Shown one piece after another: positions 346-63,025 of a DNA stretch of 64,000 bases; the first letter of the stretch is position 1, and each line of letters starts with the position of its first letter. The stretch is from Corynebacterium amycolatum SK46. Its GTDB lineage: Bacteria > Actinomycetota > Actinomycetes > Mycobacteriales > Mycobacteriaceae. Location: assembly GCF_000173655.1 (NCBI RefSeq), contig NZ_ABZU01000007.1, positions 62,001-126,000 on the forward strand, read 5' to 3'. The translations under genes were made by a program, and so were the position numbers. Below the pieces are notes generated by a model. That model was not told the origin of the DNA and ran no database searches. It saw nothing but the letters and a program-made list of their open reading frames with translations.

Positions 346-357
346 CGCTTTACGACG
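346..357 (-). repeat. Recurring 12-base word CGTCGTNAAGCG
   Basis: Exact copy (N = A), read on the reverse strand, 6 bases after the stop codon of the first gene. It is one of about 16 exact or near copies in the window, described under findings. Confidence 0.6.
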
Positions 358-525
358 GGCACTGAAGCTAGCGGCCCCACTGGACACATTCACCATCCTC
401 GGTTTTCCATCCCCAGGAAAGAGACAGAGTAAATGCCCCAAAAACTGGTAGCAGTGAGGAAATCAGCCACTATCCAAATTGGATAACGCTGTTGCATTCG
501 CCGTAACCGTGCCAACGATTTTTAC

Positions 526-556
526 AAAGGTCAAGCATGAACGCTTGACCTTTTCT
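526..556 (+). terminator. Rho-independent terminator
   Basis: A perfect 11-bp stem (AAAGGTCAAGC / GCTTGACCTTT) with a 6-base loop is followed by a short T run. It ends transcription from the membrane-protein gene about 190 bases after its stop, and separates it from the RipA-like gene. Confidence 0.8.
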
Positions 557-616
557 TATGTCCGATACCCTAGGTAGGGGCCTGCGATATTCCGGCACGC
601 CGACAAGCCATCGAAT

Positions 617-632
617 AGTGACATAATTCACA
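617..632. promoter_or_regulatory. Candidate GlxR (CRP-family) binding site
   Basis: AGTGACATAATTCACA matches the known corynebacterial GlxR consensus TGTGANNTANNTCACA at every fixed position except the first. It lies about 340 bases upstream of the RipA-like start, inside the long leader. Control of peptidoglycan hydrolases and resuscitation factors by CRP-family proteins is known in the group; regulation here is inferred. Confidence 0.5.
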
Positions 633-970
633 TAGAAAACTAGGGCTCACCATAACCGCAGGCCACGGCGTATAACGAAACGATTACAAAGTGGGGGACA
701 GTTGGTAATTTTGTTACTTATGTTTTTTTAGAGCTTTTTGACCCGTAAAGTGCTTCGTGATGCCAATAGTGGACTCAAGGGTCCAGTATTGACCAAAGAA
801 AACTCGCGGGAGCGCCGCTGTTGCTTTTGGTTCTGGTTTCGGTTCGACGTTTTTCGTAGTTCCACTCAAGACCGGGAGACAACAACGGGAAGATATCCAA
901 CGATGGGGAAGTCGCTGGTGTCGATTCTGAGGCGTGAACGCACCCATAGGAGAAATGTAGGAGTAACGCG

Positions 971-2635
971 GTGCCGAGTAATCGCAAAGTCCGTGCATCA
1001 TATTGGACTCGTCCAATTGCCGGTATTATCACGGCGGGTCTTCTGGCGACGAACACTCAGGTCGCAGCTGCACAACCACTAAATCCGAGCGACGCCCAGA
1101 TCCGTCAAGCGCGCGAGGCGGCCTCTAACGCCGAGTCGTACTTGCAGTCCCTGGTCGCCGAGGTAACTTCGAGCGAGCGCCGGGTATCTGACCTCGAGCT
1201 ACGCATGGGCACTCTGCGCGAGGACGTCAACAAGGCCATGGTGGACCTTGAAAACGCTCGGGATGCTGCGAACCGTGCGCGCGAGGCGGTCAACGAGGCA
1301 CGTACCCAACTCGACCGTTCCCGCGCCGAACTCGCTAGCGCTCAGAAGCAGTTCGATGAGCTAGCACGCACCATCATGCGTCAGGGCCGTTCCAGTGGTT
1401 CGATTCTCGAGGGTGCGCGAGATGCTTCCGAGGCCATTAACCGCCTGTCCGCTTTGCGTCGCGAAGCTGACCGTCAAGAGCAGACCGTTGACTCGCTGGA
1501 TAAGAATCGAACTGAGGCTGCTAACCAGGAGTCCACACTTCGCAAGAAGAGTGACGAGGCTCAGCAGGCGGAGGCCACCGCAAACCAGCGAAACACCGAT
1601 GCTCAGAACGCGTACTCCGAGGCAAACGAGGAGCTTCAAAAGGAGCAAGCTGATTACCAGCAGGCTCAGGTCGACCGCGATGCTGCAAAGGCATCTTTGG
1701 ACGCAGCCCGAAACGCGGTCAACGAGCTGAACTCTCAGCGCCAGAATTATGAGAACGAGCAGGCCCGCAAAGAAGCGGAAGACGCCGCTGCCAAGAAGGC
1801 CGCTGAGGAAGCTGCAGCTAAGACTCGCGCCGAGGCGCAGTCGAACCAGACTGATGAGGATTCCTCTTCCGAGTCCACAGATGAAAGCTCTAGCACCACC
1901 GACTCGACTGGCTCCACCGGCTCCACTGGTTCTAACAGCTCCACAGGTTCCAATAGCTCGACCGGCTCGACTGGTTCCGCGGGTACCACCGACTCGACTG
2001 GCTCCACCGGCTCCACTGGTTCTAACAGCTCCACCGGCTCTTCTGGTTCCACTGGCTCCACCAGTTCCTCTGAGACGACCGAATCTTCGGACTCCTCTGA
2101 GTCCACCGAGACCTCGGAATCGTCGAGCACCGGCAGCTCGTCGTCAAGCGGTACCCCAGCACAGACTGTGGCGCCGACGAATCCAGAGACCGGTCAGAGC
2201 ACCTCAGGTTCTTCCAGCCAGAAGGTTGAGACTGTCATCGCACGTGCGATGGGGCAGCTCGGTGTCCCTTACGCATGGGGCGGCGGCAACGCCAACGGCC
2301 CGACCAAGGGCATCCGTGACGGCGGAGTAGCTGACTCCCACGGCGACTACAACAAGATTGGTTTCGACTGCTCGGGACTGACTCTGTACGCCTACGCCGC
2401 TGTCGGCATTGACCTGCCTCACTACACCGGCTACCAGTACCAGCGCGGAAAGCACTACCCGGCATCTCAGATGAAGCGTGGTGACCTGCTGTTCTGGGGC
2501 CCGAATGGTCATGGCCACGTCGCTATCTACCTGGGCGATGGCAAGATGATTGAGGCACCACAGTCTGGTTCTGTGGTTAAGATCTCGCCAGTCCGTTATA
2601 ACGGAATGACACCGAACGTTGTCCGCCTCGTCTAG
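971..2635 (+). CDS. ripA: RipA-like secreted NlpC/P60 peptidoglycan endopeptidase
   Basis: The enzyme cuts peptide bonds in peptidoglycan and in this group separates daughter cells. It is 554 residues. The GTG start at 971 has GTAGGAG just upstream and gives a signal peptide ending near AAA-QP. Residues about 35-290 are a charged, heptad-rich coiled coil. Residues about 295-400 are a Ser/Thr/Gly-rich linker built partly from a 90-bp repeat. The NlpC/P60 domain fills the last 125 residues. The catalytic triad is visible as Cys467 (FDCSGL), His516 (GHVAIYLG) and Glu528 (MIEAP), with the same spacing as Cys383, His432 and Glu444 of M. tuberculosis RipA. It lies directly before the moxR group, as in mycobacteria. 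The linker is longer and more repetitive than in mycobacterial RipA. Confidence 0.9.
   Translation: MPSNRKVRASYWTRPIAGIITAGLLATNTQVAAAQPLNPSDAQIRQAREAASNAESYLQSLVAEVTSSERRVSDLELRMGTLREDVNKAMVDLENARDAANRAREAVNEARTQLDRSRAELASAQKQFDELARTIMRQGRSSGSILEGARDASEAINRLSALRREADRQEQTVDSLDKNRTEAANQESTLRKKSDEAQQAEATANQRNTDAQNAYSEANEELQKEQADYQQAQVDRDAAKASLDAARNAVNELNSQRQNYENEQARKEAEDAAAKKAAEEAAAKTRAEAQSNQTDEDSSSESTDESSSTTDSTGSTGSTGSNSSTGSNSSTGSTGSAGTTDSTGSTGSTGSNSSTGSSGSTGSTSSSETTESSDSSESTETSESSSTGSSSSSGTPAQTVAPTNPETGQSTSGSSSQKVETVIARAMGQLGVPYAWGGGNANGPTKGIRDGGVADSHGDYNKIGFDCSGLTLYAYAAVGIDLPHYTGYQYQRGKHYPASQMKRGDLLFWGPNGHGHVAIYLGDGKMIEAPQSGSVVKISPVRYNGMTPNVVRLV
1895..2034 (+). repeat. 90-bp-period direct repeat in the linker of the RipA-like gene
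   Basis: Two identical 50-base copies (1895-1944 and 1985-2034) are separated by 40 bases of related Ser/Thr/Gly codons. They encode TTDSTGSTGSTGSNSS-type sequence. A period of 90 keeps the frame, so copy number can change without breaking the protein. Confidence 0.8.
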
Positions 2636-2689
2636 TTTCTAACGACGTGTTCTACAGGTCGGGCGACCGACCTAAAGAAGGGTTTCTCT

Positions 2690-3694
2690 GTGACCTACCC
2701 AACGCCCACTGACCACACGGACCTCGAGCGCGCATACGCGGAGCTGGGGAAGGTTGTGGTTGGCCAGGAGCACCTGATTAAGCAGCTCTTTATCGCGATG
2801 CTCGCAGGAGGACATGTCCTGCTCGAAGGTGTTCCGGGTGTTGCGAAAACTCTGGCAGTGTCTACCTTTGCCACAGTGATGGGTGGGTCCTACTCCCGCA
2901 TCCAGTTCACTCCGGATTTGGTGCCATCAGATATTGTCGGCACCCGGATTTTCCGCCAGGACACCTCGGAGTTCATTGTCGAGCCCGGCCCGGTCATGTC
3001 AAATATCGTGCTCGCTGATGAAATCAACCGCGCACCGGCGAAGGTGCAGTCGGCACTGCTGGAAGTCATGGCAGAGCACCAGGTGTCCATCGCAGGAGAG
3101 TCCACGCCAGTACCCGAGCCGTTTCTGGTCCTGGCCACGCAAAACCCAATTGAAAACCAGGGTGTCTACCCACTGCCAGAGGCCCAGCGGGACCGATTCC
3201 TATTCAAAGTCCTCGTGGGTTACCCCACTCCGGCGGAAGAGCGGGAGATTGTCTACCGCATGGGAGCCACCCCTCCAGCCGCGCAGCAGATTCTCACCCC
3301 AGAGAGTGTTCGGGAACTGCAGCGCGCTACCCGCGAAGTCTTTGTCCACCACACACTGATTGACTACATCGTGGCCGTTATCGAACTCACCCGTAATCCG
3401 ATGCGGGCGGAGTTGAAGGATGTCGACCGCTGGCTTTCCTATGGCGCATCGCCGCGTGCAACTCTTGGTGCTGTCGCGGCTGCCCGCGCTCACGCGCTGT
3501 TTTCCGGTCGCGACTATGTCGTGCCGGACGATGTGGTCTCCGTGCTTCCCGACGTGCTGCGTCACCGCCTGGTCCTGTCCTATGAGGGATTGGCCGATGG
3601 CGTTACTCCCGAACGGATTATTGACATCGTGTTGTCTCACGTGCGTCTTCCCCAGGGCGCGGGCACTGGCTCCGATGAGGGCACTGCCTCCTAA
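2690..3694 (+). CDS. moxR: MoxR-family AAA+ ATPase
   Basis: MoxR proteins are AAA+ chaperone-like ATPases that work with VWA-domain partners, often in cell-envelope assembly. The protein is 334 residues. The Walker A motif is GVPGVAKT (47-54) and Walker B is VLADE with Asp110-Glu111; the sensor region reads ATQNPIE. The GTG start at 2690 follows the ribosome site AAGAAGGG. An 18-base hyphenated palindrome (2656-2673, AGGTCG/CGACCT) lies just before that site. The stop overlaps the next start (TAATG), so it is translationally coupled to the DUF58 gene. It corresponds to M. tuberculosis moxR1 (Rv1479). Substrate unknown. Confidence 0.9.
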   Translation: MTYPTPTDHTDLERAYAELGKVVVGQEHLIKQLFIAMLAGGHVLLEGVPGVAKTLAVSTFATVMGGSYSRIQFTPDLVPSDIVGTRIFRQDTSEFIVEPGPVMSNIVLADEINRAPAKVQSALLEVMAEHQVSIAGESTPVPEPFLVLATQNPIENQGVYPLPEAQRDRFLFKVLVGYPTPAEEREIVYRMGATPPAAQQILTPESVRELQRATREVFVHHTLIDYIVAVIELTRNPMRAELKDVDRWLSYGASPRATLGAVAAARAHALFSGRDYVVPDDVVSVLPDVLRHRLVLSYEGLADGVTPERIIDIVLSHVRLPQGAGTGSDEGTAS

Positions 3695-4542
3695 TGTCAG
3701 CTCGTGAAGACGATCTTGCACGCGTCCTGGCGTACTTAGAGCTAACTGTTACACGTAAGCTTAACGGACTTTTGCGCGGCAGCTTTCTCTCCACCGCTAC
3801 TGGAGAAGGCTCTGAGCCGGTTGGCTCCCGCGAATATGTCATCGGCGATGATGTTCGCCAGATGAACTGGGCAGTGACAGCCCGTACTGGAGTGCCACAC
3901 GTTCGCACCTCCGAGGCCGAGCGCGAGCTGGAGTGTTGGATCGTCGCCGAACCCGCCGCACGTCTGTCCACGGGATTGGCCGATACCACCAAACGACATC
4001 TGCTCACCGCCGCTGCCGGCGCTGTAACGATGCTTAACGACGCCCCGGGGTCCCGAACTGGATTAATCGCCGGTGGCACTCCAGTGCCCGCGGGCCAGGG
4101 CCGTGCCCACAGCTTGATGCTGCTCAAGCAGTTGGCTGACGCGACTGCTGAGCATAACCTCGCAGCGGATATTGACACAGTAATGACTCAGGCTCCGCGC
4201 GTTGGGCTGTTGGTTGTCATCTCGGATTTCCTTGGATCACTCGATTGGGCGCGCCCGCTGCGCGTTGCCTCGGCCTCGACAGAGATTATGGCGATCCGCC
4301 TGGTCGATCCAGCCGATGAAGCCCTGCCCGGCGAAGGCCCGGTGGTTATGGCGGATTCAGCAACTGGTGAGACCATTGAACTCAACATCAACGACAAAAC
4401 CCGCGCCGAGTATGCAGCTCAGGCTAGTGCCCACCACGAGCGTGTAATCAATGAACTGCGCAAATGCCGTGCTCGCGTTATTACCTTGCGTACGGATTCC
4501 GATTGGATACTGGATTTTGCTCGACAAATTGGCCAACATTAG
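3694..4542 (+). CDS. DUF58 protein, MoxR partner
   Basis: A 282-residue protein of the DUF58 family, which in bacteria is nearly always encoded between a MoxR ATPase and a VWA membrane protein. The family hallmark region is visible near residues 45-65 (REYVIGDDVRQMNW, then the basic VPHVRTSEAERE). The C-terminal half has the alternating strand-helix pattern of a VWA-like fold without a clear metal site. The start is the ATG sharing a base with the moxR stop. It corresponds to Rv1480. Its role is inferred from family context: an adaptor in a MoxR chaperone system acting near the membrane. Confidence 0.85.
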   Translation: MSAREDDLARVLAYLELTVTRKLNGLLRGSFLSTATGEGSEPVGSREYVIGDDVRQMNWAVTARTGVPHVRTSEAERELECWIVAEPAARLSTGLADTTKRHLLTAAAGAVTMLNDAPGSRTGLIAGGTPVPAGQGRAHSLMLLKQLADATAEHNLAADIDTVMTQAPRVGLLVVISDFLGSLDWARPLRVASASTEIMAIRLVDPADEALPGEGPVVMADSATGETIELNINDKTRAEYAAQASAHHERVINELRKCRARVITLRTDSDWILDFARQIGQH

Positions 4543-4654: not shown

Positions 4655-5647
4655 ATGACGTTCCTAAACTCAACTTTTGCGCACCCAGGTTGGCTACTCG
4701 CACTCGTTCTGCCTCTCGTGGCAGCCGCGGCCTATTGGATCAGCACTAAGCAGCGAAAGCAACGTGCCATTGCCTTTGGCAACTTCACCATCGTTGGGTC
4801 ACTGGGGAATAAGTCGTCGGCACGCCTGCGCCATGTCGTGGCTATCAGTGCGCTGTTGTCTCTAGTTCTGGTCATCATTTCATTGGCTGGTCCGATATCG
4901 GAGACCAAAGTCGCCCGCAACCGAGCGACGGTCATGCTGGTGGTCGACGTTTCACTGTCCATGTCGGCCACCGATGTTGCGCCCGACCGCATCACTGCCG
5001 CTAAAGAAGCCGGTCAAGAATTCGTGGAGAACCTTCCCGACGACCTCAATATCGGCCTGGTGACGTTCTCTGGCCGCGCTCGCACTGCTGTTAGCCCGAC
5101 TACCAACCATGACACCGTGAATCGAGCGCTTCAGGCTGCTGAGTTAGATCAGGCTACTGCTACCGGTGATGCCATCGCAGCCGCGCTCGATGCCATCAAT
5201 CAGTTCAGCGACTCAGTTCAAGGCGGGGGAGAAGGTGCCCCACCAGCGACAATTGTGCTGCTTTCCGACGGCAAACAGACCGTTCCACAAGAACTCGACG
5301 ATCCCCGCGGCGCGTATACAGCCGCCGCCGAAGCCGCCAAGGCCGGGGTGCCAGTCAACACGATTTCGTTCGGTACCGCGCAAGGCGCAATCACGGTTCA
5401 GGGCGAATTAATTCCAGTGCCTAACGACGACGATTCGCTGCGAGAAATCGCCCGTCGAACAAAAGGTGAGTTCTTCAGCGCTGGGTCCTTAGAGCAGCTC
5501 CGCGATGCCTATGGCTCACTGGAAGATGACATCGGTTACGAACTCAAGCGGGCCGAGAATCCGAGGCCCTATCTGATTGCGGCCTTCGCGATGCTGCTAG
5601 TGACTGTGGGCTCACTGCTTGTGACCAATCGTCGAATTCCGCAGTAG
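4655..5647 (+). CDS. VWA-domain membrane protein (BatA/Rv1481 type)
   Basis: A 330-residue membrane protein with hydrophobic segments at about 12-30, 62-80 and near the C-terminus (about 303-322). Between them lies a von Willebrand A domain. The metal site is complete: DVSLS (Asp98, Ser100, Ser102) and later LLSDGKQT. It is the third member of the MoxR-DUF58-VWA set and corresponds to Rv1481. The 112-base gap upstream holds a near-palindromic A/T-rich stretch (TATAACCACTGGTTTATA), so it may also have its own promoter. It probably presents substrates at the membrane for the MoxR ATPase; the substrate is unknown. Confidence 0.85.
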   Translation: MTFLNSTFAHPGWLLALVLPLVAAAAYWISTKQRKQRAIAFGNFTIVGSLGNKSSARLRHVVAISALLSLVLVIISLAGPISETKVARNRATVMLVVDVSLSMSATDVAPDRITAAKEAGQEFVENLPDDLNIGLVTFSGRARTAVSPTTNHDTVNRALQAAELDQATATGDAIAAALDAINQFSDSVQGGGEGAPPATIVLLSDGKQTVPQELDDPRGAYTAAAEAAKAGVPVNTISFGTAQGAITVQGELIPVPNDDDSLREIARRTKGEFFSAGSLEQLRDAYGSLEDDIGYELKRAENPRPYLIAAFAMLLVTVGSLLVTNRRIPQ

Positions 5648-5663: not shown

Positions 5664-5675
5664 CGTCGTAAAGCG
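5664..5675 (+). repeat. Recurring 12-base word CGTCGTNAAGCG
   Basis: Exact copy (N = A), 17 bases after the stop of the VWA gene. See findings for the full list. Confidence 0.6.
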
Positions 5676-6865: not shown

Positions 6866-7735
6866 CTAGCGGGTCCACTCCTGAATCGCGTATTCCACCG
6901 CGCTCATCCGCGCCTGCCGGATCTTTCGCCACAGCGGGATGAGCTGCGTATCAAAAGCGGCGCTGCCGTGCCCCGACTCGCTGCCCTGTGCCACCGCCAG
7001 AATCGACGACACCCGATCAGCTCTGGCGAGCACTCCCAGTGCACGCCGCGGCACATCATCTGGCACAAAAGCCATGTCCAGGTGATCATCGAGCATGCCG
7101 ACCATCAGCCGGGGGTCCGCCTTCGGGACACCACTGCTTGACGACGTCAGCGGTGAACGCGGCATCGCCGCAATAGTGGCAGCCGCAACCCGCGCCGCAT
7201 CTGCGAGCTGCAAATCTGCCTCGCCAGGGGAGAGATACGCCGGCTCGGGAATGTGGCCTTCCAGTGTGTACCAATGCCACTGCGGCAGACCGGGCACCGG
7301 CGATGTCACTGGTATGAGCACATGGTTCCAACCCGGCTCCGCATCCGCAATCGCAATGGCTGAGCCTGCTGCGCGTGCAGCCTCAGCGGCGTCGGTTCCC
7401 GCAGGCAGTGCAGGTGCATCACCGGGCCCGGAGAGAATAAGGCGGACGAGGGGACGGTGGTCACTGTGCCAATCTCCCGCTTCAGTAACTGCTCGAAGAA
7501 GGCGGAGCATGTCGCTTCGATCGAGGTCAGCGTCGCAATCGATGACATTCGGAACCGTGGCGTCGGCAAGCACGAACGTTCCCGGAACTGACGTGGGCCC
7601 TCCGAGCGAGTCGAGCGCGTCGAGGAGATGATCGTAGTTTTCCAAACCCGACAACCATGCGCCCAGCCAAAGGGCGATGTGCTGAGTTGGACTCCAGACC
7701 TGGTCGAGAACACTGCGCTGCATAGTGCAGCTCAT
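6866..7735 (-). CDS. Conserved protein of Rv1486c type, function unknown
   Basis: A 289-residue soluble protein facing hemH and divergent from the DUF3097 gene. The open frame extends upstream to 7870, but that would overlap the neighbouring gene. The ATG at 7735 (MSCTMQRSV) or 7723 is the likely start. No catalytic motif is recognised. The sequence is rich in Ala, Asp and Pro, with WHWYTLEGHIPEPAYLSPGE as its most distinctive stretch. A four-serine run at about residues 197-200 is encoded by a near copy of the word CGTCGTNAAGC (7135-7146). Gene order (hemH, this gene reversed, NfeD, SPFH) matches M. tuberculosis Rv1485-Rv1488. Confidence 0.75.
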   Translation of the reverse strand: MSCTMQRSVLDQVWSPTQHIALWLGAWLSGLENYDHLLDALDSLGGPTSVPGTFVLADATVPNVIDCDADLDRSDMLRLLRAVTEAGDWHSDHRPLVRLILSGPGDAPALPAGTDAAEAARAAGSAIAIADAEPGWNHVLIPVTSPVPGLPQWHWYTLEGHIPEPAYLSPGEADLQLADAARVAAATIAAMPRSPLTSSSSGVPKADPRLMVGMLDDHLDMAFVPDDVPRRALGVLARADRVSSILAVAQGSESGHGSAAFDTQLIPLWRKIRQARMSAVEYAIQEWTR

Positions 7736-9232: not shown

Positions 9233-10624
9233 ATGGAAGGCTTTATCATCCTCGTCGTTTTCATTCTCGTGGTTGTTACCTTGGTTCTCAAAGCGATTGT
9301 CCTGGTTCCTCAGGGTGAAGCGGCAATCGTAGAGCGACTGGGACGATACACGCAGACACTGAATAGCGGCCTGAACTTCATCATCCCGATCATTGACCGA
9401 GTGCGCGAGAAGGTTGATACCCGTGAGCGTATGGTTACCTTCCCGCCACAGGCAGTGATCACCGAAGACAACCTGACTGTGGCTATCGATACTGTCGTGA
9501 CCTTCCAGGTCAACGAACCGGATCGGGCGATTTACGGTATCGACGACTACATTTTCGGTGTCGAACAGATCACCACCGCAACGCTTCGCGACGTCGTGGG
9601 TGGCCTGACTCTGGAAGAGACACTGACTTCCCGTGACTACATCAACCGCCGTCTGCGCGGCGAGCTGGACGAGGCCACTGCCAAGTGGGGTCTTCGTATC
9701 GCTCGTGTGGAGCTGAAGGCTATTGAGCCGCCACCGTCGATTCAGCAGTCGATGGAAAAGCAGATGAAGGCCGATCGCGAGAAGCGTGCCATGATTCTGA
9801 CTGCGGAAGGTACCCGCGAAGCCGATATTAAAACTGCTGAGGGCCGTAAGCAGGCACAGATTCTGGCCGCCGAAGGTAACAAGCACGCAGCAATTCTGGC
9901 TGCTGAAGCTGAGCGTCAGGCAACCATTCTGCGCGCTGAGGGTACTCGCGCCGCTACCTACCTTGAGGCGCAGGGTAATGCTCGCGCTATCCAGAAGGTC
10001 AACGCAGCTGTTAAGGCTTCACAGTTGACACCTGAGATTCTTGCCTGGCAGTACCTGGAGAAGCTACCTGAGCTGGCAAATAAGGACGGCAATACTGTTT
10101 GGATGATTCCGTCGCAGTTCGGCGACAGTCTCGAGAGCTTCGCTAGGGCTTTCGGCAAGAAGGATGCCGACGGTGTCTTCCGCTATGAGCCTCCGGCCGT
10201 GAGCCGAGAGACCAAGGAAGAGGCTGAGCAGGGCCGCGACGAGAACTGGTTCGATATGTCGACCAACCCGGAGTTGGCTCGTGCTGTTGCCGCGGCGAAC
10301 GAGGTCGCTAACCGCCCGGTTGATGATCCGGTAGCTGCAGCAGCTGGTAATACCCCTGAGAGGAAGAAGAACCGCCGCGCTGATTCGGCTCAGCCCGCTC
10401 AGCCTAAACAGTTGGGTGGCCAGAACCGCCCGGCAGCGGTTGAACCTGCGACACCGGCTGCGCCCGCTGCACCGGCTGCGCCGTCAGGTCCTTCCGGCAA
10501 ACGTGACCTGCCCTCGGCTCCTGGCACCGGTAATACCAATGCAGGCGGCGGTGCACACTCCACCGAGCGTCCAGATTTTTCAGGATGGTCACGTGACCCT
10601 TACGCCCCAGAAAATGGGCAGTAA
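9233..10624 (+). CDS. SPFH/stomatin-like membrane protein
   Basis: A 463-residue band-7 protein. An N-terminal membrane helix (about 3-23) is followed by the SPFH domain to about residue 180, marked by VPQGEAAIVERLGRY. A long Ala/Glu-rich coiled coil with repeated AEG/AEAERQA units runs to about 260. The last 150 residues are low-complexity Ala/Pro/Gly and probably disordered; this tail is longer than in many stomatins. Such proteins form oligomeric membrane scaffolds that organise microdomains and protease quality control. It corresponds to Rv1488 and pairs with the NfeD gene upstream. Confidence 0.88.
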   Translation: MEGFIILVVFILVVVTLVLKAIVLVPQGEAAIVERLGRYTQTLNSGLNFIIPIIDRVREKVDTRERMVTFPPQAVITEDNLTVAIDTVVTFQVNEPDRAIYGIDDYIFGVEQITTATLRDVVGGLTLEETLTSRDYINRRLRGELDEATAKWGLRIARVELKAIEPPPSIQQSMEKQMKADREKRAMILTAEGTREADIKTAEGRKQAQILAAEGNKHAAILAAEAERQATILRAEGTRAATYLEAQGNARAIQKVNAAVKASQLTPEILAWQYLEKLPELANKDGNTVWMIPSQFGDSLESFARAFGKKDADGVFRYEPPAVSRETKEEAEQGRDENWFDMSTNPELARAVAAANEVANRPVDDPVAAAAGNTPERKKNRRADSAQPAQPKQLGGQNRPAAVEPATPAAPAAPAAPSGPSGKRDLPSAPGTGNTNAGGGAHSTERPDFSGWSRDPYAPENGQ

Positions 10625-11329: not shown

Positions 11330-12001
11330 TTAACGTTTCGAAGAACCGGTTACGACAGGGAACTTGGCGTCCGCAAGAAGCCCCAGCAAGCCAAGCACGA
11401 GCAGAATTCCCGTGGCCACCGCAAAGCGCACGTCAAAGCCGACCAACAGCGCGTCGCCAAGCAGAACGACGGCGAGTGTGTTCGGCGCCGAACCTAGGGC
11501 AGTGGCGATGATATACGGCACGATGCGTATCGACGACAGCCCACAGGCGTAGTTGAGAAACGAAAATGGCACGCCAGCAATCATGCGCAAGCTGAGCACT
11601 GTGAGCCAGCCGCGTTGCTCCAACCGGTGGTCGAGACTGAGAAGACGGCGGTTGGTCAGGTGCGTGCGAATCCAGTCGCGCCCCAGGAAACGCACAATGC
11701 ATAGGGAGAGAAGGGCAGAAACCGTCGTCGCAGTAATTGCCAGCAGGAAACCGAGCACTGGCCCGAAGAGGATTCCGGAAGCCAAAGTGAATACGGTGCG
11801 GGGGATTGGGAACTGAGTCAGTGCAACGTATGCGAGGAAGTAGAGAAGCGGGAACCAGTCACCGGCATCGATGGACCACTGCCGGATGGTAGCGACGGTG
11901 GGAACATCGACGTACAGCGTGACGACGACCCCCACACCTACGGCTAGCACCAGCAGAACCTTTTTGAGTGTAGGGGTAATTCGCACATCGGATACGTTCA
12001 C
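11330..12001 (-). CDS. TVP38/TMEM64 (VTT domain) membrane protein
   Basis: A 223-residue integral membrane protein with about five or six hydrophobic segments. The VTT/DedA-related core is visible as PIPRTVFTLASGILFGPVLG and, later, the re-entrant-like RMIAGVPFSFLNYACGLS. Proteins of this superfamily are linked to phospholipid or undecaprenyl-phosphate scrambling. The position before mutA on the opposite strand matches Rv1491c. Specific substrate unknown. Confidence 0.85.
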   Translation of the reverse strand: MNVSDVRITPTLKKVLLVLAVGVGVVVTLYVDVPTVATIRQWSIDAGDWFPLLYFLAYVALTQFPIPRTVFTLASGILFGPVLGFLLAITATTVSALLSLCIVRFLGRDWIRTHLTNRRLLSLDHRLEQRGWLTVLSLRMIAGVPFSFLNYACGLSSIRIVPYIIATALGSAPNTLAVVLLGDALLVGFDVRFAVATGILLVLGLLGLLADAKFPVVTGSSKR

Positions 12002-12385: not shown

Positions 12386-14278
12386 GTGACTGACCGAACG
12401 ACCCCCGAATCACCTTCCACGCTGCCACCAAACTTCGAGGAATTGCAGAATTCCTGGTATCAGGGCGTGGCCAAGGTATTCGCGCGGGTGCACAAGCAAG
12501 ACGTTGCAGATGTACCGCTCGATATTTGGAAACGACTGATTCAGACCACCTATGACGGTGTCGATGTCCGCCCGCTCTACACCCGTGCGGACGAGCTCGC
12601 GGAAAGCCCAGCTCCGGGCCAGTTCCCATTCGTCCGTGGCGCAAAGGTCACTTCGGACAACACCAACGGTTGGGGTGTTCGGGAGACCTTCGGTCGCCAG
12701 TACCCGGGTGAAGATGCCCTCGATCCGAAGACCGTCAACGAGACTCTGCTGACTGCCCTGGAAAACGGAACCACGGACATCCGCCTGGACTTCACCGGCT
12801 CCCTCGAAGCCGCTGATGTGGCGGCTCTGCTTAACAACGTCTACGTCGACCTCGCTCCGATTGCCGTGCATGCCGGTAAGAAGACCGCGCAGGTTGCGGA
12901 AGCACTGACGTCCTACATTGAGCAGGCGAACCCGGCTAATCCGGACAACGTCGCAGTCGAGCTTTCCGCAGCTCCGCTGACCTCCGCTTTTGCCGGTATT
13001 GACGATGTTTCTCTCGACGAGGCCACTCAGCTGGCCGTCAAGGCGGCAAAGCAGCCGGGCGACGTCCGTGCCCTGCTTGTCGACGGCGTTGTTTTCTCCA
13101 ACCTGGGTGCAAACAACATCCAGGAGATTGGCTACAGTCTCGCCGTTGGTGTCGCCTACTTGCGCGCGCTGACCGAAGCGGGCTTGAGCGCTGAAGAAGC
13201 CCTCGGCCAGATCGCGTTCCGCTTTGCCGCTACCGACGACCAGTTCGACACCATTGCGAAATTCCGCGCCGCTCGCGTTCTGTGGGCTCGCGTTGCTGAG
13301 GTTGTCGGTGCCCCCGAGGCTGGCCGCGCTCCGATGCACGCCGTAACCGCCCCGGTGATGTTCAGCCAGCGCGATCCGTGGGTCAACATGCTGCGTGTGA
13401 CTGTCGCCTCCTTCGCCGCAGGCGTCGGCGGTGCCTCCTCAGTTGAGGTTCTGCCTTTTGATTACGCAGTTGTCGGCGGCATGCCGAACGTCTCCAAGAC
13501 CTTCAAGGCTCGCATCGCTCGCAACACCAACCTGTTGCTGTTGGAAGAGTCTCACCTTGGTTACGTCGCCGACCCAGCAGGTGGCTCCTACTTCGTCGAA
13601 GACCTTACCGAAGAAATGGCCGACAAGGCGTGGGAGATTTTCACCGGCACTGAGGCCGCCGGCGGTTTCACCTCCGCGGAGGCCGATGTTCGCGCCGCCC
13701 TGGACGCTACCTGGGAAAAGCGCCGCGCCGATATCGCACATCGCCGCACCAAGGTCACCGCTATCAACGAGTTCCCGAACCTGGCTGAAGCCCCACTGGC
13801 TCCCGAGGCCCGCCCGGAGGGCGACCCGATTCGCCGTTGGGCAAGCGACTTCGAGGCACTGCGCAACCGCTCCGATGACTTCCTGGCTGAAAAGGGCAAC
13901 CGTCCGCTTATTGCGATGCTGCCGCTGGGTCCGCTGGCCAAGCACAACATCCGCACTGGATTTACCTCCAACCTGCTGGCATCCGGCGGTATCGCCGTCG
14001 CTAACCCCGGTCAGGTTGTGCCAGGAGAGGCCGGTTTCGAAGAGGCAGTGAAGGCCTCTCCGATTGTCGTGCTGTGCGCAGCCGACAGCGAGTACGAGGC
14101 TTCGGGCCAGGACGCTGTCAAGGCCGCCCGCGCCGCAGGCGCTAAGGAGGTCCTGGTGGCCGGCTCCGAGAAGAGCTTCGCCAATGCCGCTGAGGACGCT
14201 CGCCCCGACGGATACCTGAACATGACCATCGATGCTGTCGCGGAGCTGTCCCGACTGCTGAACGAACTGGGAGCGTGA
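12386..14278 (+). CDS. mutA: Methylmalonyl-CoA mutase small subunit
   Basis: MutA is the non-catalytic subunit of the MutAB dimer that interconverts (R)-methylmalonyl-CoA and succinyl-CoA, in propionate metabolism and supply of methyl-branched precursors. It is 630 residues: a TIM-barrel-like domain (to about 480) and a B12-fold C-terminal domain. The latter lacks the cobalamin-binding DxHxxG (the equivalent region reads ADSEYEASG), as expected for the small subunit. The GTG at 12386 follows AAGGGAGAAGG. Only 8 bases separate its stop from the mutB start, so the two are coupled. It corresponds to Rv1492. Confidence 0.93.
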
Positions 14279-36837: not shown

Positions 36838-38736
<1,899 letters not shown>

Positions 38737-53070: not shown

Positions 53071-54186
53071 ATGAGCAACGGTATCTTTAGCTTTGACATC
53101 TATCAGCAGCGTCTGGATCGCACGGCGGAGCTACTCCGCAGCCGCGATGCGGACGCTGCAGTCTTTGGAACCGGCGCTGACCTGCAGTATCTCATTGGTT
53201 CTGCGGTCACTTCGCATGAGCGTCTCACCGCGCTGGTGGTCACCGCAGTCGGCACAACCACGCTGGTACTGCCCGCTGTTGAGCGCGGGGATCTGCCGCT
53301 GTGCGCAATCGGTGATCTCAACGCCGATGTGGTGTTGTGGGAAGACGGAGAGAATCCGCACCGCATTGTCGCCGACTTGGTGGGCCACGTGGGCACCCTC
53401 GCAGTGGGCGCTTCGTTGACCGCTGACCACTTGATTCCCATTCAGGATCTCACCGGAGCCAAGACTGTGTTGGCCGGAGACCTTCTGAAGGAACTGTTTA
53501 TGCGCAAGGACGCCGCTGAGATTGATCAGCTGCGCGAAGCCGGCGCCGCTATTGACCGCGTTCACGCTCGCGTGCCGGGCATGTTGCGCGCAGGTCGCAC
53601 TGAGCGCGAGGTCGCCGACGAGATTTCGGCTGCCATCCTGGAGGAGGGGCACGTCGCCATTGACTTCGTCATTGTCGGCTCCGCTGAAAATGGCGCGAAT
53701 CCGCACCACGATTTCTCCGACCGCGTCATCGAGGAAGGCGACGTGGTGGTCGTCGATATCGGAGGCACCTTGCCGCTTGGCTACCACTCCGATTGCACGC
53801 GCACCTATGTCGTCGGCAAGCCGGGGGAGAAGGAAGCTGCAGCGTGGGCGGCTCTGCGCAAGGCGCAGGAAGCTGCCGTGGCGGCGGTGCGCCCTGGCGT
53901 GACGGCTGCGGAAATCGATGCGATTGCGCGCAATAGCCTAACTGCTGCGGGCTACGGCGAGTACTTTATCCACCGCACTGGTCATGGCATTGGCCTGTCC
54001 ACGCATGAAGAGCCGTTCATTATGGCTGGCAATGAGCTCAAGCTCGAGCCTGGCATGGCATTTTCGGTGGAGCCGGGCGTGTACCTACCAGGTGAGTTCG
54101 GTATGCGGCTGGAGGACATCATCATTGTCACCGAAGATGGCGGCGAATCGGTCAATAACGGTCCGCACGATTTGATTACCGTCTAA
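53071..54186 (+). CDS. pepQ: Xaa-Pro dipeptidase/aminopeptidase (M24B)
   Basis: A 371-residue metallopeptidase of the pita-bread fold that cuts X-Pro bonds. The N-terminal creatinase domain (about 1-130) is followed by the catalytic domain. Metal ligands are the Asp of VVVDIGG, the Asp of HSDCTRTY, the His of HGIGLSTHEEP, the Glu of FSVEPGVY and the final Glu of MRLEDII. The ATG at 53071 is chosen over an upstream TTG at 53062, which falls in the -10 box. It matches mycobacterial PepE (Rv2089c) downstream of helY. Confidence 0.9.
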   Translation: MSNGIFSFDIYQQRLDRTAELLRSRDADAAVFGTGADLQYLIGSAVTSHERLTALVVTAVGTTTLVLPAVERGDLPLCAIGDLNADVVLWEDGENPHRIVADLVGHVGTLAVGASLTADHLIPIQDLTGAKTVLAGDLLKELFMRKDAAEIDQLREAGAAIDRVHARVPGMLRAGRTEREVADEISAAILEEGHVAIDFVIVGSAENGANPHHDFSDRVIEEGDVVVVDIGGTLPLGYHSDCTRTYVVGKPGEKEAAAWAALRKAQEAAVAAVRPGVTAAEIDAIARNSLTAAGYGEYFIHRTGHGIGLSTHEEPFIMAGNELKLEPGMAFSVEPGVYLPGEFGMRLEDIIIVTEDGGESVNNGPHDLITV

Positions 54187-54983: not shown

Positions 54984-56206
54984 GCCCAAAGCTTCGCGTC
55001 GTCGGCATCGGCTGCGACGGGTACGTTGGTCTATCCACGCGCGCTGTCGAGGCGTTGTCGTCGGCTCGCCGCATCATTGGCTCTCCCCGTCAGCTCCATT
55101 TGCTTGCCGACGTCAACCTGGACGCCGAACTCTCTCCTTGGCCAGGTGGCTTCTGGAAGGACTGGCAGGCCACCCTGGCAGATGTTGACCCCGCAGTCGA
55201 TGTCATCCTCGCCAGTGGGGATCCGATGTTCCACGGTGTCGGCGCGTCCCTGGTCCGGGAGCTCGGCCGTGGCGCCGTGAAGGTTATTCCAGCGCCATCG
55301 TCGGCCTCATTAGCCTGCGCCTACCTCGGCTGGCCCGTGCATGACACTCCGGTGATTTCGCTGGTGACAGGGGAGCCGGGAATACCTGGAGCCGCGCGTG
55401 TGGTACCGGCAGCGGATGCACTACGGCCCTTCCTGGTGCTGTGCCGAAACGCGGACTCAGTGAAGGAGGTCGCTACGGTTTTAGCCGACCGCCCAGACAC
55501 CAAGCTCACCGCGCTGACCAATCTCGGCGGCACGGAAGCTACAGGGCTGCCCGAGTCCGTTGCCGCAGGCACGGTGGCGAACCCACCGGTTCCAGCTGGC
55601 AACCTCACAGTGCTGGCGGTGGAGCCGTCGGGAAGCGCGCGCGGCTGGCTGCGCGACGGTGACTTTGATTCGGACGGCCAGCTGACGAAGGCGCCGATTC
55701 GCCAAATGACCGTCGCCGCGTTAGATCCGCGGCCGGGGGCACTGCTGTGGGATGTCGGCGGTGGCACGGGATCGATTGGCATTGAGTGGGCTCGGCACGG
55801 CGGACGTGCGGAAATTTTCGAGCGTGATGATGTTCGTGCAGAGCGAATTGCTAAGAATGTGGCGACTCTGTCTGGCAATGTGACCGTCCACCACGGAGCG
55901 GCACCAGCGGTGTTGGCTGACTCGAATCTTCGCCCCGATGCCATTTTCATCGGCGGAGGTCTCACTGCTGACGGCATGATTGAAACCTGTTGGCAACACC
56001 TTGCTCCAGGAGGCACCATCGTCGCAAATACCGTAACGCTGGAGTCGGAGGCTTTGCTGTGGCAGGCACGTCGCGACTATGGCGGGGATGTCACCAGGCT
56101 TTCCGTGGAGCGCGCAGGTGCAGTCGGCAGTTTCACTGCGTGGCGGCCGGCGTTGCCGGTGGTGCAGTGGGTGGCGGTGAAGCCAGTAGCGCCTGCGCTA
56201 CCATAG
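54980..56206 (+). CDS. cobL: CobL, precorrin-6B methyltransferase (CbiE-CbiT fusion)
   Basis: Methylates C5 and C15 of precorrin-6B and removes the C12 acetate carboxyl. It is 408 residues. The N-terminal CbiE-type methyltransferase (about 1-200; VVGIGCDGYVGLS, ILASGDPMFHGVG) is joined to a C-terminal CbiT-type SAM domain (about 215-400; LLWDVGGGTGSIGIEWA). The ATG overlaps the SDR stop by four bases (ATGA); a TTG at 54962 is upstream but less likely. First of three cob genes on this strand. Confidence 0.93.
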   Translation: MSPKLRVVGIGCDGYVGLSTRAVEALSSARRIIGSPRQLHLLADVNLDAELSPWPGGFWKDWQATLADVDPAVDVILASGDPMFHGVGASLVRELGRGAVKVIPAPSSASLACAYLGWPVHDTPVISLVTGEPGIPGAARVVPAADALRPFLVLCRNADSVKEVATVLADRPDTKLTALTNLGGTEATGLPESVAAGTVANPPVPAGNLTVLAVEPSGSARGWLRDGDFDSDGQLTKAPIRQMTVAALDPRPGALLWDVGGGTGSIGIEWARHGGRAEIFERDDVRAERIAKNVATLSGNVTVHHGAAPAVLADSNLRPDAIFIGGGLTADGMIETCWQHLAPGGTIVANTVTLESEALLWQARRDYGGDVTRLSVERAGAVGSFTAWRPALPVVQWVAVKPVAPALP

Positions 56207-57757: not shown

Positions 57758-59368
57758 CTAGGGCAGCAACTCGCCAGTTCCGCTGGTGCCGCCCTCACCG
57801 TAGTGACGTGCGGTGTAGACCCGAGTGGTCTTGCCGGCACGATACGCCTTCGTCGACGACGAACCGATAATCACCATGGTTCGCATATCGACGACATCCG
57901 GATCGAACTCCGCCAACGTGGTCACGGTGACGTTTTCCTGCTCGGAGCCGACTGCCCGCGCCACAATCACCGGCGTTGTCGGCTCGCGGTATTCCATGGC
58001 CAGTGCGCGCAGCTCGCGAACCTGCCACCTCCGCGACTTGGACGCCGGGTTGTAGACAGCAAACGCCATGTCTGCTCCGGCTACTGCACGCACTCGCTTA
58101 ACGACGACTTCCCAGGGCTTCAACCTGTCGGAGAGACTGAGCATCGCAAAGTCATGTCCAAGGGGAGCGCCCACTCGACTTGCGACAGCCTGAGCCGCAG
58201 TCATACCCGGCACGACTCGAACTGGAATGTTTCGCAACATATCGTCGTCAGCGACTTCCAGCACTGCGGCCGCCATGGCGAAGACTCCCGGGTCACCGGA
58301 GCTGACCACCGCAACACGACCTCCGCGCTTGGCAATATCCAACGCCATAGTGGCTCGCTCTGCCTCTACGCGGTTGTCAGAGAGGTGGCGGCGCTGCCCG
58401 GCGCGCTCGGGGACTCGGTTGATGTAGGTGGAGTAGCCCACCAGATCCGTGGCCCGGGCCAGTTCCTCGGTGACTTCTGGGGTGGTCCAGTGTTCAGCAC
58501 CTGGGCCCAGGCCGACAACGACGACTTCACCGACCGCTGGGGTAGCCGACTCAGTTGCTGTAACGGTGGCTGCACCGGTCGCCGCATCGTCAGCTAACTC
58601 TGATGCTCCAGAAACGCTCCGTTCAGTGCCGTAGACGGCGGAAGGCACGATGGCTACTGCAAAGTACGGAACCTTTTCCGGGTCTGCATCGGCCAGCGGG
58701 TAGCTGGTGTGCTCATTCATGGTGGCTCGCTCGACAACGTAGGCGCGCTCGAGCATTCCAGCGGCTTGCAACGCTGTACGAACCTTCTCAACGTTTTTCC
58801 CCAGCTTCATAATGACTACACAGTCTGAGGCGTCAAGAACCGCAGCGATGCGCTCGGAATCTGCGGTGGCCGGGACAACGCTGACGATTTCGGTAGCCTC
58901 GCCGAGCGGCTGGCCAATCTCTGCTGCCGCCGCAGTAATGCTGGCCACTCCGGGGACGATCTCGGTGGGGAAGTCCTCGCTGAGAGCGTGGTGCAGATGC
59001 TGGTACGAGCTATAGAGCATCGGGTCACCGAGCGAAAGTACCGCAACGCTTCGTCCCTCGGCCAAGTGCTTGTGCAGGCGAGCAGTGGCCTCTGCATAGA
59101 AACCGGCGAGCTGCTCGCGGTAGTCGGCTGGGCGCCCGGTGGTCACCGGGTATTGCAATTGCTCTTCCACGGCAGCGTCGTCACGCGCGTCAATCAGTTC
59201 GGCGGCGATTGAACGCGCCGTGGAACGTCCGTGAGTTCCGGCATGGTAGGCGATGACATCAGCTGTGCGGATGATGTCGGCACCGCGGAGTGTAATGAGA
59301 CCTGCGTCGCCGGGGCCGAGTCCGACGCCGTAGAGATGACCAGGCTGAGCACTGTAGGAGCCGGACAT
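57758..59368 (-). CDS. cobIJ: CobI-CobJ fusion, precorrin-2 C20- and precorrin-3B C17-methyltransferase
   Basis: A 536-residue protein joining two tetrapyrrole methylases. The N-terminal CobI part (about 1-245; GVGLGPGDAGLITLRGADII, LSLGDPMLYSSYQ) methylates C20 of precorrin-2. The C-terminal CobJ part (about 275-515; VVGLGPGAEHWTTPEV, VSSGDPGVFAMAA) methylates C17 with ring contraction. The linker of about 30 residues is Ala/Thr-rich. The fusion is known from M. tuberculosis Rv2066. An exact copy of the recurring word lies in the CobJ half (58095-58106, same strand as the gene). It begins 4 bases after the cobH stop. Confidence 0.93.
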   Translation of the reverse strand: MSGSYSAQPGHLYGVGLGPGDAGLITLRGADIIRTADVIAYHAGTHGRSTARSIAAELIDARDDAAVEEQLQYPVTTGRPADYREQLAGFYAEATARLHKHLAEGRSVAVLSLGDPMLYSSYQHLHHALSEDFPTEIVPGVASITAAAAEIGQPLGEATEIVSVVPATADSERIAAVLDASDCVVIMKLGKNVEKVRTALQAAGMLERAYVVERATMNEHTSYPLADADPEKVPYFAVAIVPSAVYGTERSVSGASELADDAATGAATVTATESATPAVGEVVVVGLGPGAEHWTTPEVTEELARATDLVGYSTYINRVPERAGQRRHLSDNRVEAERATMALDIAKRGGRVAVVSSGDPGVFAMAAAVLEVADDDMLRNIPVRVVPGMTAAQAVASRVGAPLGHDFAMLSLSDRLKPWEVVVKRVRAVAGADMAFAVYNPASKSRRWQVRELRALAMEYREPTTPVIVARAVGSEQENVTVTTLAEFDPDVVDMRTMVIIGSSSTKAYRAGKTTRVYTARHYGEGGTSGTGELLP

Positions 59369-59371
59369 GGT

Positions 59372-61209: not shown

Positions 61210-61216
61210 ACTCTCA

Positions 61217-61222
61217 AGAATA
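61217..61222 (-). promoter_or_regulatory. -10 box for a leaderless cobG operon
   Basis: TATTCT on the reverse strand ends 7 bases before the ATG at 61209. With no leader there is no room for a riboswitch in this operon. Confidence 0.5.
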
Positions 61223-61407
61223 CGCAAACACGCACAGAGCTGAGCCCCCGAAAACAGGGGCACATTATCCAGCCCCTTTTCAGCCCAACAAAACCATCCT
61301 GAAGTGGAGTTTTGATATCCCTCCGCGAAAAACATACAAATTCTTCACTAAAATCCACCGATTTACCTTTCTAAAACCTTATTGTTTTTATCACCTAACT
61401 TCCTCTG

Positions 61408-61427
61408 AATTAAGGGAAGTCTTAATT
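61408..61427. promoter_or_regulatory. Palindrome ahead of the LIP lipase gene
   Basis: AATTAAG-N6-CTTAATT, perfect 7-base arms, 36 bases before the lipase ATG. It does not fit the DtxR, GlxR or McbR consensus; the binding protein is unknown. Confidence 0.4.
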
Positions 61428-61462
61428 TTGGTTTTTCAATCTGGGGTTATTCAGGAGATTTC

Positions 61463-63025
61463 ATGCCACATCACGACACTGAAGCACTCACGCACGAGGC
61501 ACACGGCATCGTCGGTATCGGCCGCGCCTCGGCACAGACGCGCACTGCTTCACGACGACACCGTCGCACCATCCGAACGGGAATCGGGGTAGCACTAGCG
61601 GGGCTTATGACCATCGGCCTAACTACACCTGCAAACGCACAGCCACTAAACATCCCAGGCCTATCGGATAGTGGGCTGACGGATAAGGTGTCGTCGTCAA
61701 GTGCAAACCGCGAATTGCCTGGTTTCGGCCATGTACCGAACCCGAATATGGAGAGGCTGCTTGGCATCGAGAAGGACGAAGAGGAGTCTGACAGCGAGGG
61801 TGCAGGCAGGCAGCTGACCCCGGAACAGGCACGCGTGACCGCAGCCTCTCCGCTGAATTCTCTGCCGCTGACCCCGTCGCGCACGGCAAATGCCGGCACG
61901 CTGGTCAGCAGCGAGAATGCCGAGATGATGGTGAACGACAAGCTGTGGAATGTAGATGCCAAGCGTATTCACTACAACTCCACAGATTCTCTCGGAAATC
62001 CCAGTGTCGACACCGCCATTGTGGTGACTCCGAAGACGGAGTGGAAGGGCAGTGGTCCGCGCCCGGTCGTGGCAATCGCGCCAGGCACGCAGGGTGGCGC
62101 GGAAAAGTGCGATCCTTCGGTCTCGTCACAGACCGGGTTGAAGATCGAGTTCGGCCCGATGGACATTATTGCCCCATACGAGACGATTCCGATGGTCGCA
62201 AACCTGAAGCGAGGCGCAACTGTGGTGATGATTGACCACCACCGCAATGCCCAGGGCAACCAGGACTATGTCGACAACATTGCCTCGGCACAGTCGCTGT
62301 TTGATGCCGTGTCTGCCTCACACGAGCTCGGCGTGGACAAGAAGGCACCCGTGGGAATCTATGGCTACTCCCAGGGCGGCTCCGCAGCTGCCGCAGCCGC
62401 TGAGCGCGCAGGTGTCTATGCTCCGGAGCTCAACGTCGCCGCATCTGCCGCCGGCGGCCCACCTTCCGATCTCGCAAACGTCCTCGACCAGATTGACGGC
62501 ACCACGCTGACCGCCGCAATCGCACTGGCAATCAACTCTGTCCTGGACAAGGATCCGGAGCTGCGCCGCGTCCTCGAAGAAGAAATCAGTCCCGAGGGCA
62601 AGAACCTGCTGGACAACGTGGGCAACTACTGCGCGGGCGGCTTGGGTTTCCATCACGCGTTTGAAACCACTGACCAGTACACGACTAGCGGGGAATCCCT
62701 CAGCGAGCTGATTAAGCGCTACGATCCGGTGCAGAAGGAACTCGCACGCCAGCGTGTCGGCAACTTCGTGCCAAATGCCCCGGTGTACCTCTACTCGGGT
62801 GAGCACGATGACATTATCCCTATCAACCAGGTCCGCAAGCTCCGTGATGCCTGGCTGAATCTCGGCTTCACCGACCTGGAGTACGTCGAAAACACGACTT
62901 CGCCTCTGCTGCCGAAGACTGGCCTGAACCATGTCGTTCCGATGCTCGCGGAACTGACTAATGCCACCGACTTCCTCTGGTCGCACTTCCCGGACCAGCC
63001 CGCAGAGCAGTCGCTGGAACTCTAG
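61463..63025 (+). CDS. Secreted LIP-family lipase
   Basis: A 520-residue exported alpha/beta hydrolase of the secretory lipase (LIP) family. A long, basic signal region (RRHRRTIRTGIGVALAGLMTIGL) ends near ANA-QP at about residue 60. A Ser/Glu-rich linker follows, with four serines encoded by a near copy of the recurring word (61692-61703). The nucleophile lies in GYSQGG, the acid probably in SGEHDDIIP, and the His in GLNHVVP. CAGGAGAT is the ribosome site. It probably hydrolyses host or environmental triacylglycerols. It has no visible link to the flanking cob genes. Confidence 0.87.
   Translation: MPHHDTEALTHEAHGIVGIGRASAQTRTASRRHRRTIRTGIGVALAGLMTIGLTTPANAQPLNIPGLSDSGLTDKVSSSSANRELPGFGHVPNPNMERLLGIEKDEEESDSEGAGRQLTPEQARVTAASPLNSLPLTPSRTANAGTLVSSENAEMMVNDKLWNVDAKRIHYNSTDSLGNPSVDTAIVVTPKTEWKGSGPRPVVAIAPGTQGGAEKCDPSVSSQTGLKIEFGPMDIIAPYETIPMVANLKRGATVVMIDHHRNAQGNQDYVDNIASAQSLFDAVSASHELGVDKKAPVGIYGYSQGGSAAAAAAERAGVYAPELNVAASAAGGPPSDLANVLDQIDGTTLTAAIALAINSVLDKDPELRRVLEEEISPEGKNLLDNVGNYCAGGLGFHHAFETTDQYTTSGESLSELIKRYDPVQKELARQRVGNFVPNAPVYLYSGEHDDIIPINQVRKLRDAWLNLGFTDLEYVENTTSPLLPKTGLNHVVPMLAELTNATDFLWSHFPDQPAEQSLEL

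Follow-up and report, generated by a model that had tools for sequence, protein, structure and literature searches.

To our knowledge, the only described words that match the one reported here in length and copy number, in having dialects that follow clades and in being scarce in acquired DNA are the uptake sequences of the Neisseriaceae and the Pasteurellaceae. The DNA uptake sequence (DUS) of Neisseria is reported at about 1,900 copies in genomes of 2.2-2.3 Mb and in eight dialects, some of them one base apart, with one bilingual genome and a 5′-CTG-3′ core common to all (PMC3630211); its spacing has been linked to conversion tracts of 1.1-1.7 kb (PMC2397512). The uptake signal sequence (USS) of the Pasteurellaceae is described as falling into two clade dialects, the Hin and Apl types (PMC12616744), and that of Haemophilus influenzae as evenly spaced and taken up independently of its orientation (PMC1939737). 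Here, we analyze a stretch of 64,000 nucleotides from Corynebacterium amycolatum SK46 (contig NZ_ABZU01000007.1, positions 62,001 to 126,000; hereafter the window), across which an asymmetric word, CGTCGNNAAGC, that is, CGTCG and AAGC separated by two free bases, recurs on both strands. We observe this word in high copy number, in dialects, conserved in position, non-randomly spaced and nearly absent from four plasmids and one phage. Comparative analysis gives about even chances that this genus-wide, dialect-forming chromosomal word is a DNA uptake (self-recognition) sequence; based on its copy number, dialects, conservation and scarcity in plasmids and phage, this is the best reading available, and one of those that a first-pass annotation of the window had offered.

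That annotation had given the word as CGTCGTNAAGCG. The recurrence is real, and this form is two bases too long. Substitution counts in 464 kb of the window's genome (G000, 2.51 Mb in 48 contigs, with the window at 62001-126000 of contig 42) and in 400 kb of a close relative (G005) show that any single change in CGTCG or AAGC leaves 0-7 copies, against 46 (G000) and 52 (G005) for the unchanged form. Positions 6 and 12 of CGTCGTNAAGCG vary, T and G being preferences there that lie outside the fixed word. The true word is bipartite, with nine fixed bases and a gap of exactly two: the other gaps between CGTCG and AAGC (0, 1 and 3-8) occur in 2-20 copies (4-20 in the 464 kb of G000). The same 464 kb hold 290 copies of CGTCG-NN-AAGC, a 44-fold excess over the mean of 6.6 (95th percentile 14) for 300 letter rearrangements, at least one of which drew the word itself, and the 400 kb of G005 hold 256 against a rearrangement mean of 5.7. 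Flanks of 25 bases display a codon-like periodicity and no further fixed base. The window contains 40 copies (Table 1). The nine exact CGTCGTNAAGCG sites listed earlier are all present, along with an overlooked tenth at 28895-28906 (+), as against 0.05 expected from 100 shuffles. Of the sixteen core copies claimed, the enrichment is genuine and the tally is not: there are 18 copies of CGTCGTNAAG against 0.79 expected, those at 28895 and 61548 (-) having been missed, and since only CGTCG..AAGC is fixed, the claimed copies at 38766 and 61692, which have AAG without the following C, are not words. Across the whole genome, CGTCGTNAAGCG occurs 331 times in 2.51 Mb (reversed-pattern control 4) and CGTCGNNAAGC 1,622 times, at about 0.65 per kb and near-equally on the two strands (reversed control 72).

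The word is far from confined to one window or species. We counted CGTCGNNAAGC, with its reversed control, and the variants CATCGNNAAGC (CATCG dialect) and CGTCANNAAGC (CGTCA dialect) in 242 Corynebacterium genomes. The copy number of CGTCGNNAAGC is bimodal, with 195-1,964 copies, near-equally on both strands, in 171 genomes and 8-134 in the other 71; the reversed control never exceeds 119. The CATCG dialect, first detected by de novo scans of 40 kb from each of four CGTCGNNAAGC-low genomes, reaches 211-1,337 copies in 17 of the 242, of which 16 belong to the 71 CGTCGNNAAGC-low genomes. The CGTCA dialect, first found in C. ulceribovis (9 copies in 22.8 kb versus 0.18 expected), is numerous only in G226, which belongs to the 171, and stays at or below 119 copies in all others. 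The three forms nearly exclude each other, two of them occurring together in the bilingual genomes G023 (1,337 CATCG and 352 CGTCG) and G226 (902 CGTCA and 343 CGTCG). Separately, the CGTCG genomes G034, G180, G181 and G195 hold 144-165 CATCG copies, above the usual 20-100. Altogether, 187 genomes carry at least 195 copies of a word form and 55 fall below; among the latter, a residual CGTCG excess is seen in G170 (115 versus a control of 27), G178 (127 versus 35) and a few more, and a CATCG excess in G027 (159 versus 10), all of which may represent decaying or weak systems. In the sister genera (140 genomes from 30 genera of the family), CGTCGNNAAGC occurs 28-418 times in 1.9-8.5 Mb, mostly like its reversed control, with the highest excess at about 2.6-fold (G338, 373 versus 143).

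The dialects follow clades. Among 63 named helY loci, five are mainly CATCG (C. macginleyi and four further strains), one is CGTCA, and those of C. phocae, C. flavescens, HMSC04H06 and SUG2093 are nearly word-free. The HelY tree joins the CATCG clade (C. macginleyi/KPL1814) and the CGTCG-using C. tuberculostearicum clade as sisters; the HelY of the window itself shares 98% identity with its counterpart in a C. vitaeruminis assembly. An alignment of seven loci from one of the sister clades with five from the other (74% identity, 24 word places) has three places (columns 4223, 13829 and 20320) at which most rows of one clade show CGTCG and most rows of the other CATCG; column 22403 has a mixed first clade against a mainly CATCG second one, and the remaining places are clade-private, partial or shared. 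A second CATCG group (G001, G004, G026, G096 and G106) clusters with the word-free G042 on a helicase tree (support 87/99).

De novo scans of 40 kb from each of ten CGTCG-poor genomes recovered CATCG in four and no comparable word in G006, G010, G017, G028, G042 and G048; the other top words inspected in word-poor genomes were a palindrome and local repeats, most of them coding-like. Among near-variants, CGTCGNNGAGG was the strongest, with 10 copies in 40 kb versus 0.8 expected in G010 (L077, L078), a genome lacking the three known forms; it could be a further dialect or GC-rich coding background. The top de novo words of G096 (L089, L090) add up to a longer favored CATCG form, GCTTGCCGATGCC. 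We also noted eight copies of an approximately 250-bp, probably coding repeat in the word-free G028 (L083, 7756-9796), a dense array of GGAGCnnnnGGAGC copies spaced by multiples of three in what is probably a repetitive coding region of G017 (L079, 17303-18299), and an operator-like palindrome, TAGACnnnnnnGTCTA, present three times within 5.5 kb of G006 (L075, 11485, 11562 and 16979).

Individual sites are conserved beyond expectation. Over 91.8 kb alignable between G000 and G005 at 93.8% identity, 53 of the 61 G000 words are kept, as against 266 of 454 permuted control words (Fisher p 9e-6, counted one way); counting each conserved word from both sides gives 106/117 versus 532/890 (p 2e-12), a double count in place of which we rely on the one-way figure. 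With open reading frames (ORFs) picked crudely by length, 97 words lie on the coding strand and 156 on the opposite strand, all six frame/strand classes are occupied, and the favored class, opposite strand in phase 2, takes 129 of the 253 in-ORF words. The conservation and the use of all six classes bear out the earlier proposal that what is retained is the DNA sequence and not the encoded protein. The proposed enrichment after stop codons finds no general support, as 37 of the 290 words lie outside ORFs, which make up all but about 10% of the DNA. An artefact of codon usage, of a protein repeat or of a mobile repeat could draw on the fact that about half of the in-ORF copies share one class, but the flanks carry no conservation beyond codon periodicity, and congeners of similar GC content lack the word; we consider it refuted by the rearranged-word and gap counts, both at background, by the distribution over 242 genomes and by the site conservation, and give it a next to negligible probability. 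A dispersed mobile repeat (repetitive extragenic palindrome, REP, or similar) in particular is rejected on the absence of conserved sequence beyond the word in the 25-base flanks. In 20 stretches of G005, 135 words lie in the leading and 121 in the lagging sense (p 0.42), consistent with the earlier argument against a replication-polar signal; in this lack of replichore polarity the word differs from segregation signals of the FtsK-orienting polar sequence (KOPS) type.

The copies also avoid each other in an orientation-specific manner in CGTCG genomes. In G000, 24 same-orientation pairs lie 100-1000 bp apart versus 84.2 expected under uniform placement (standard deviation 9.6), as against 79 opposite-orientation pairs versus 88.1 expected; the corresponding figures are 26 versus 75.1 and 91 versus 79.9 in G005, and 32 versus 59.6 and 61 versus 61.0 in ten other CGTCG genomes pooled, which individually are small and mixed, three of the ten having more same than opposite pairs. 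In twelve groups of named loci, all from one shared chromosomal region, same-orientation pairs are fewer than opposite ones in eleven and the twelfth has no pairs. The deficit reaches out to about 1.0-1.2 kb, is similar whether or not the two copies share a gene, and is seen in none of 38 control 7-mers of similar count (lowest ratio 0.82). Each strand is tiled at about 3 kb per orientation, and spacing is more even than random, with coefficients of variation of 0.73-0.94 in four samples versus about 1.0.

These properties bear on two further explanations. The roughly 1,600 sites could be bound by a chromosome-organizing or nucleoid protein, as their genome-wide, rather even and conserved placement irrespective of gene context would allow; however, the near absence of the word in 55 of 242 congeners and its dialects speak against this, and a plain binding site hardly accounts for exclusion in the same but not the opposite orientation, so that we hold it to be quite unlikely. 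A strand-specific modification or nicking site (of a methylase, a restriction relative or a strand-marking repair system) would suit an asymmetric bipartite word read per strand, and some methylase sites do have such a two-part form. Modification sites, however, are not usually enriched more than 40-fold or conserved site by site, nor would one expect them to keep a fixed 1 kb exclusion, which makes this explanation improbable.

The acquired DNA sampled is poor in the word. Four plasmids (92.7 kb) hold one CGTCG and four CATCG words, a small sample in which the C. qintianiae chromosome is not among the counts, and phage BFK20 holds one word in 42 kb, its host chromosome likewise not being among the counts. 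The plasmid NZ_CP068167 (L446, C. aurimucosum) carries three CATCG and no CGTCG words in 20.7 kb, and the helY locus of that species (L152) uses CGTCG; the plasmid possibly came from a CATCG species.

The candidate machinery was sought in two sets of 60 genomes. The ComEC set was chosen before the dialect was known, its 30 low-count genomes including CATCG genomes, and the set for the Tad ATPase, prepilin peptidase, RecC and PDDEXK_1 comprised 20 CGTCG, 10 CATCG and 30 word-free genomes. Competence genes, which the first-pass annotation had proposed to look for, are present without discriminating the word-bearing genomes: ComEC, the Tad ATPase and the prepilin peptidase each have matches in 60/60, the last with 58 above the curated cut-off and the two below it both in word-free genomes. 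In G090 (1,618 word copies), the ComEC match at C4:524862-525658 is split over two overlapping frames, which may point to a frameshift in the gene. Frames of at least 1,000 amino acids, the size of AdnA/AdnB, with a PDDEXK_1 match are likewise found in 60/60 genomes, and RecC in 0/60, AddAB being covered only through the AdnAB-size nucleases. As ComEC, the Tad ATPase, the prepilin peptidase and AdnAB-size nucleases are found whether or not a genome carries the word, no tested gene explains its presence or absence, and co-occurrence was rejected as a guide for all five. TadA scores run at 168-203 bits in the 30 word genomes, at most 164.2 in 24 of the 30 word-free genomes and 169-179 in the other six; given this overlap and a split that seems to follow deep clades, we do not rely on them. 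The N-terminal tail of ComEA was not discriminating either, in a motif search that located ComEA in only part of 30 loci. In another actinobacterium, Micrococcus luteus, ComEA and TadA1/A2 are reported to be needed for DNA binding and import (PMC6667448).

The main rival invokes a Chi-like signal, in which an end-resecting helicase-nuclease, with AdnAB as the candidate, would recognize the word in a single orientation as it unwinds DNA from a break, and would then switch to producing a RecA-loaded 3′ tail. Same-orientation exclusion below about 1 kb would mean that the two strands are read independently, as a directional motor would do, and the tiling of both strands and the AdnA/AdnB-size frames in every genome are in keeping with it. 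On the other side are the missing RecC and replichore polarity, the presence of AdnAB-size proteins in 30/30 word-free genomes, and E. coli Chi, which shows no clear exclusion (6 same-orientation pairs versus 8.4 expected, with 62 sites in 300 kb being too small a sample to settle the matter). Dialects also switch within one genus here, and we know of no precedent for this in Chi. We therefore regard a Chi-like role as unlikely; if it held, it would be a recombination signal tied to strand-specific spacing in a lineage without RecBCD.

If the word is instead an uptake sequence, a predicted surface DNA receptor would bind it and feed ComEA and ComEC during natural transformation, with a DNA-binding protein, perhaps a Tad-type pilin, preferring word-carrying DNA. 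The orientation of the word might then select the strand that is imported, which could be why opposite-strand copies are not interchangeable and same-orientation copies are redundant below about 1 kb in CGTCG genomes, a length that would correspond to the imported tract. Biased import would spread and repair copies (molecular drive), a changed receptor specificity would convert one dialect to another at existing sites, and once the receptor was lost the word would erode down to background, which would account for the 55 low genomes. CATCG genomes, lacking the spacing pattern, would be younger or different.

Several observations weigh against an uptake role. No receptor was found among the genes examined, and the Tad ATPase and the prepilin peptidase are also present in all 30 word-free genomes, as is ComEC in each of the 30 low-count ones. 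The searched literature, a scope that left out most subscription journals and preprints, gave no case of natural transformation in a Corynebacterium. The word has no clear intergenic excess outside the crude ORFs, and convergent terminator-like pairs at 0-60 bp are enriched about 2-fold (14 versus 7.5 expected), as against 7-fold in USS-like (14 versus 1.9) and 11-fold in DUS-like loci (18 versus 1.6); these yardsticks are proviral contigs chosen by holding one copy and filtered for density and redundancy (35/120 and 19/122 loci kept). The ratio of same to opposite pairs in G000 (24/79) is unlike that of the USS-like (41/53; expected 52.8 and 56.4) and DUS-like loci (23/33; expected 40.0 and 47.4), and USS uptake is described as orientation-independent in H. 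influenzae (PMC1939737), whereas the CGTCG spacing is orientation-specific. Finally, the CATCG dialect (seven genomes, 1.04 Mb, 408 sites) has no same-orientation deficit, with 76 pairs versus 76.1 expected (opposite pairs 99 versus 77.7). This larger sample rules out the 1 kb exclusion as a universal fingerprint, and we accordingly ascribe it to CGTCG genomes alone (G000, G005 and the ten pooled others).

A bolder proposal, to which we give somewhat less than even chances, is that uptake words also operate outside the two Gram-negative families, with Corynebacterium as the first case. The bipartite word would be read on each strand separately, its dialects would draw the mating boundaries among species from human skin, mucosae and animals, and natural transformation with single strands of about 1 kb would maintain it, in a genus for which competence is not known. 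Natural transformation would then be common, and selective by species, in a genus that includes human commensals as well as pathogens and strains used in industry, gene flow would be predictable from dialects, and uptake words would have a third origin, with sister clades of differing dialects offering a way to the receptor. On either account, there are about 1,600 conserved sites per genome without report in the searched papers. That literature yielded no uptake sequence or over-represented motif for Corynebacterium, none of the four degenerate word forms, and the plain 11-mer CGTCGTCAAGC only in six papers that by title do not concern Corynebacterium. In its available text, a survey of spaced motifs gives only CRISPR pairs for three Corynebacterium genomes (PMC5217627).

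Table 1. Copies of the word in the window; every copy is an exact match.
Word	Position	Strand	Context
CGTCGTAAAGC	347..357	-	
CGTCGCGAAGC	1457..1467	+	
CGTCGTCAAGC	2139..2149	+	within NlpC/P60 gene
CGTCGGGAAGC	3544..3554	-	
CGTCGTTAAGC	4032..4042	-	
CGTCGGAAAGC	5260..5270	-	
CGTCGTAAAGC	5664..5674	+	outside length-picked ORFs
CGTCGTCAAGC	7136..7146	-	
CGTCGGCAAGC	7561..7571	+	
CGTCGCGAAGC	9583..9593	-	
CGTCGCCAAGC	11452..11462	+	
CGTCGACAAGC	13075..13085	-	
CGTCGGCAAGC	15060..15070	-	
CGTCGTAAAGC	17708..17718	+	outside length-picked ORFs
CGTCGGCAAGC	19634..19644	-	
CGTCGAGAAGC	20620..20630	+	
CGTCGTCAAGC	23260..23270	+	
CGTCGTCAAGC	25309..25319	-	placed outside by crude ORF picking, yet inside tRNA-synt_1e (MshC-type) ORF 25217-26572
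CGTCGATAAGC	26784..26794	+	
CGTCGCGAAGC	27457..27467	-	
CGTCGTGAAGC	28895..28905	+	overlooked by first-pass annotation
CGTCGGCAAGC	31265..31275	+	
CGTCGTCAAGC	31945..31955	-	
CGTCGTCAAGC	36020..36030	-	
CGTCGGCAAGC	38679..38689	-	
CGTCGTCAAGC	41471..41481	+	
CGTCGGAAAGC	41504..41514	-	convergent with 41471 copy, 33 bp apart
CGTCGGCAAGC	42593..42603	-	within Pup-ligase gene
CGTCGGCAAGC	43890..43900	-	within WYL-domain (PafB-type) gene
CGTCGTCAAGC	44036..44046	+	within WYL-domain gene also holding 43890 copy
CGTCGATAAGC	45590..45600	-	within PafC-type gene
CGTCGGAAAGC	47141..47151	+	
CGTCGTCAAGC	49122..49132	+	within helY-type helicase gene
CGTCGGCAAGC	53811..53821	+	
CGTCGGCAAGC	55102..55112	-	
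CGTCGGGAAGC	55626..55636	+	
CGTCGTTAAGC	58096..58106	-	
CGTCGTGAAGC	61547..61557	-	within secretory-lipase gene
CGTCGGCAAGC	63324..63334	-	
CGTCGCCAAGC	63762..63772	+	

The window additionally encodes a 349-amino-acid PD-(D/E)XK nuclease of the RecB family (PF12705) at 36841-37887 (-).

Set beside the known systems, the word shares with KOPS the form of a short, asymmetric, repeated chromosomal word, without the replichore polarity, and with E. coli Chi (GCTGGTGG), for which orientation matters, the over-representation on the chromosome; it departs from Chi in the lack of RecC and of replichore polarity, in its dialects and in its near absence from many congeners. It resembles the USS in its nine fixed bases, similar density, clade dialects and even spacing, although the USS core is contiguous (AAGTGCGGT or ACAAGCGGT). 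The frequent close inverted terminator pairs that are typical, if not defining, of both DUS and USS are not a feature of the Corynebacterium word. From the DUS it further differs in that CGTCG..AAGC (reverse complement GCTT..CGACG) has no CTG core, in its bipartite form with two free bases, its location mostly inside genes with few terminator-like pairs, its orientation-specific exclusion and its Gram-positive phylum with neither a receptor found nor competence shown. Lacking the CTG core and the terminator habit, the word is not assigned to either DUS or USS. It nevertheless shares with both the extreme genome-wide over-representation and, with the DUS of the Neisseriaceae, which is read by the minor pilin ComP, the asymmetric build of about ten bases, hundreds to thousands of copies, one-letter dialects that differ between clades, the existence of bilingual genomes, rarity in acquired DNA and a spacing scale of about 1 kb. 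Its density in the window's genome falls in the same class as that reported for the Neisseria DUS (PMC3630211).

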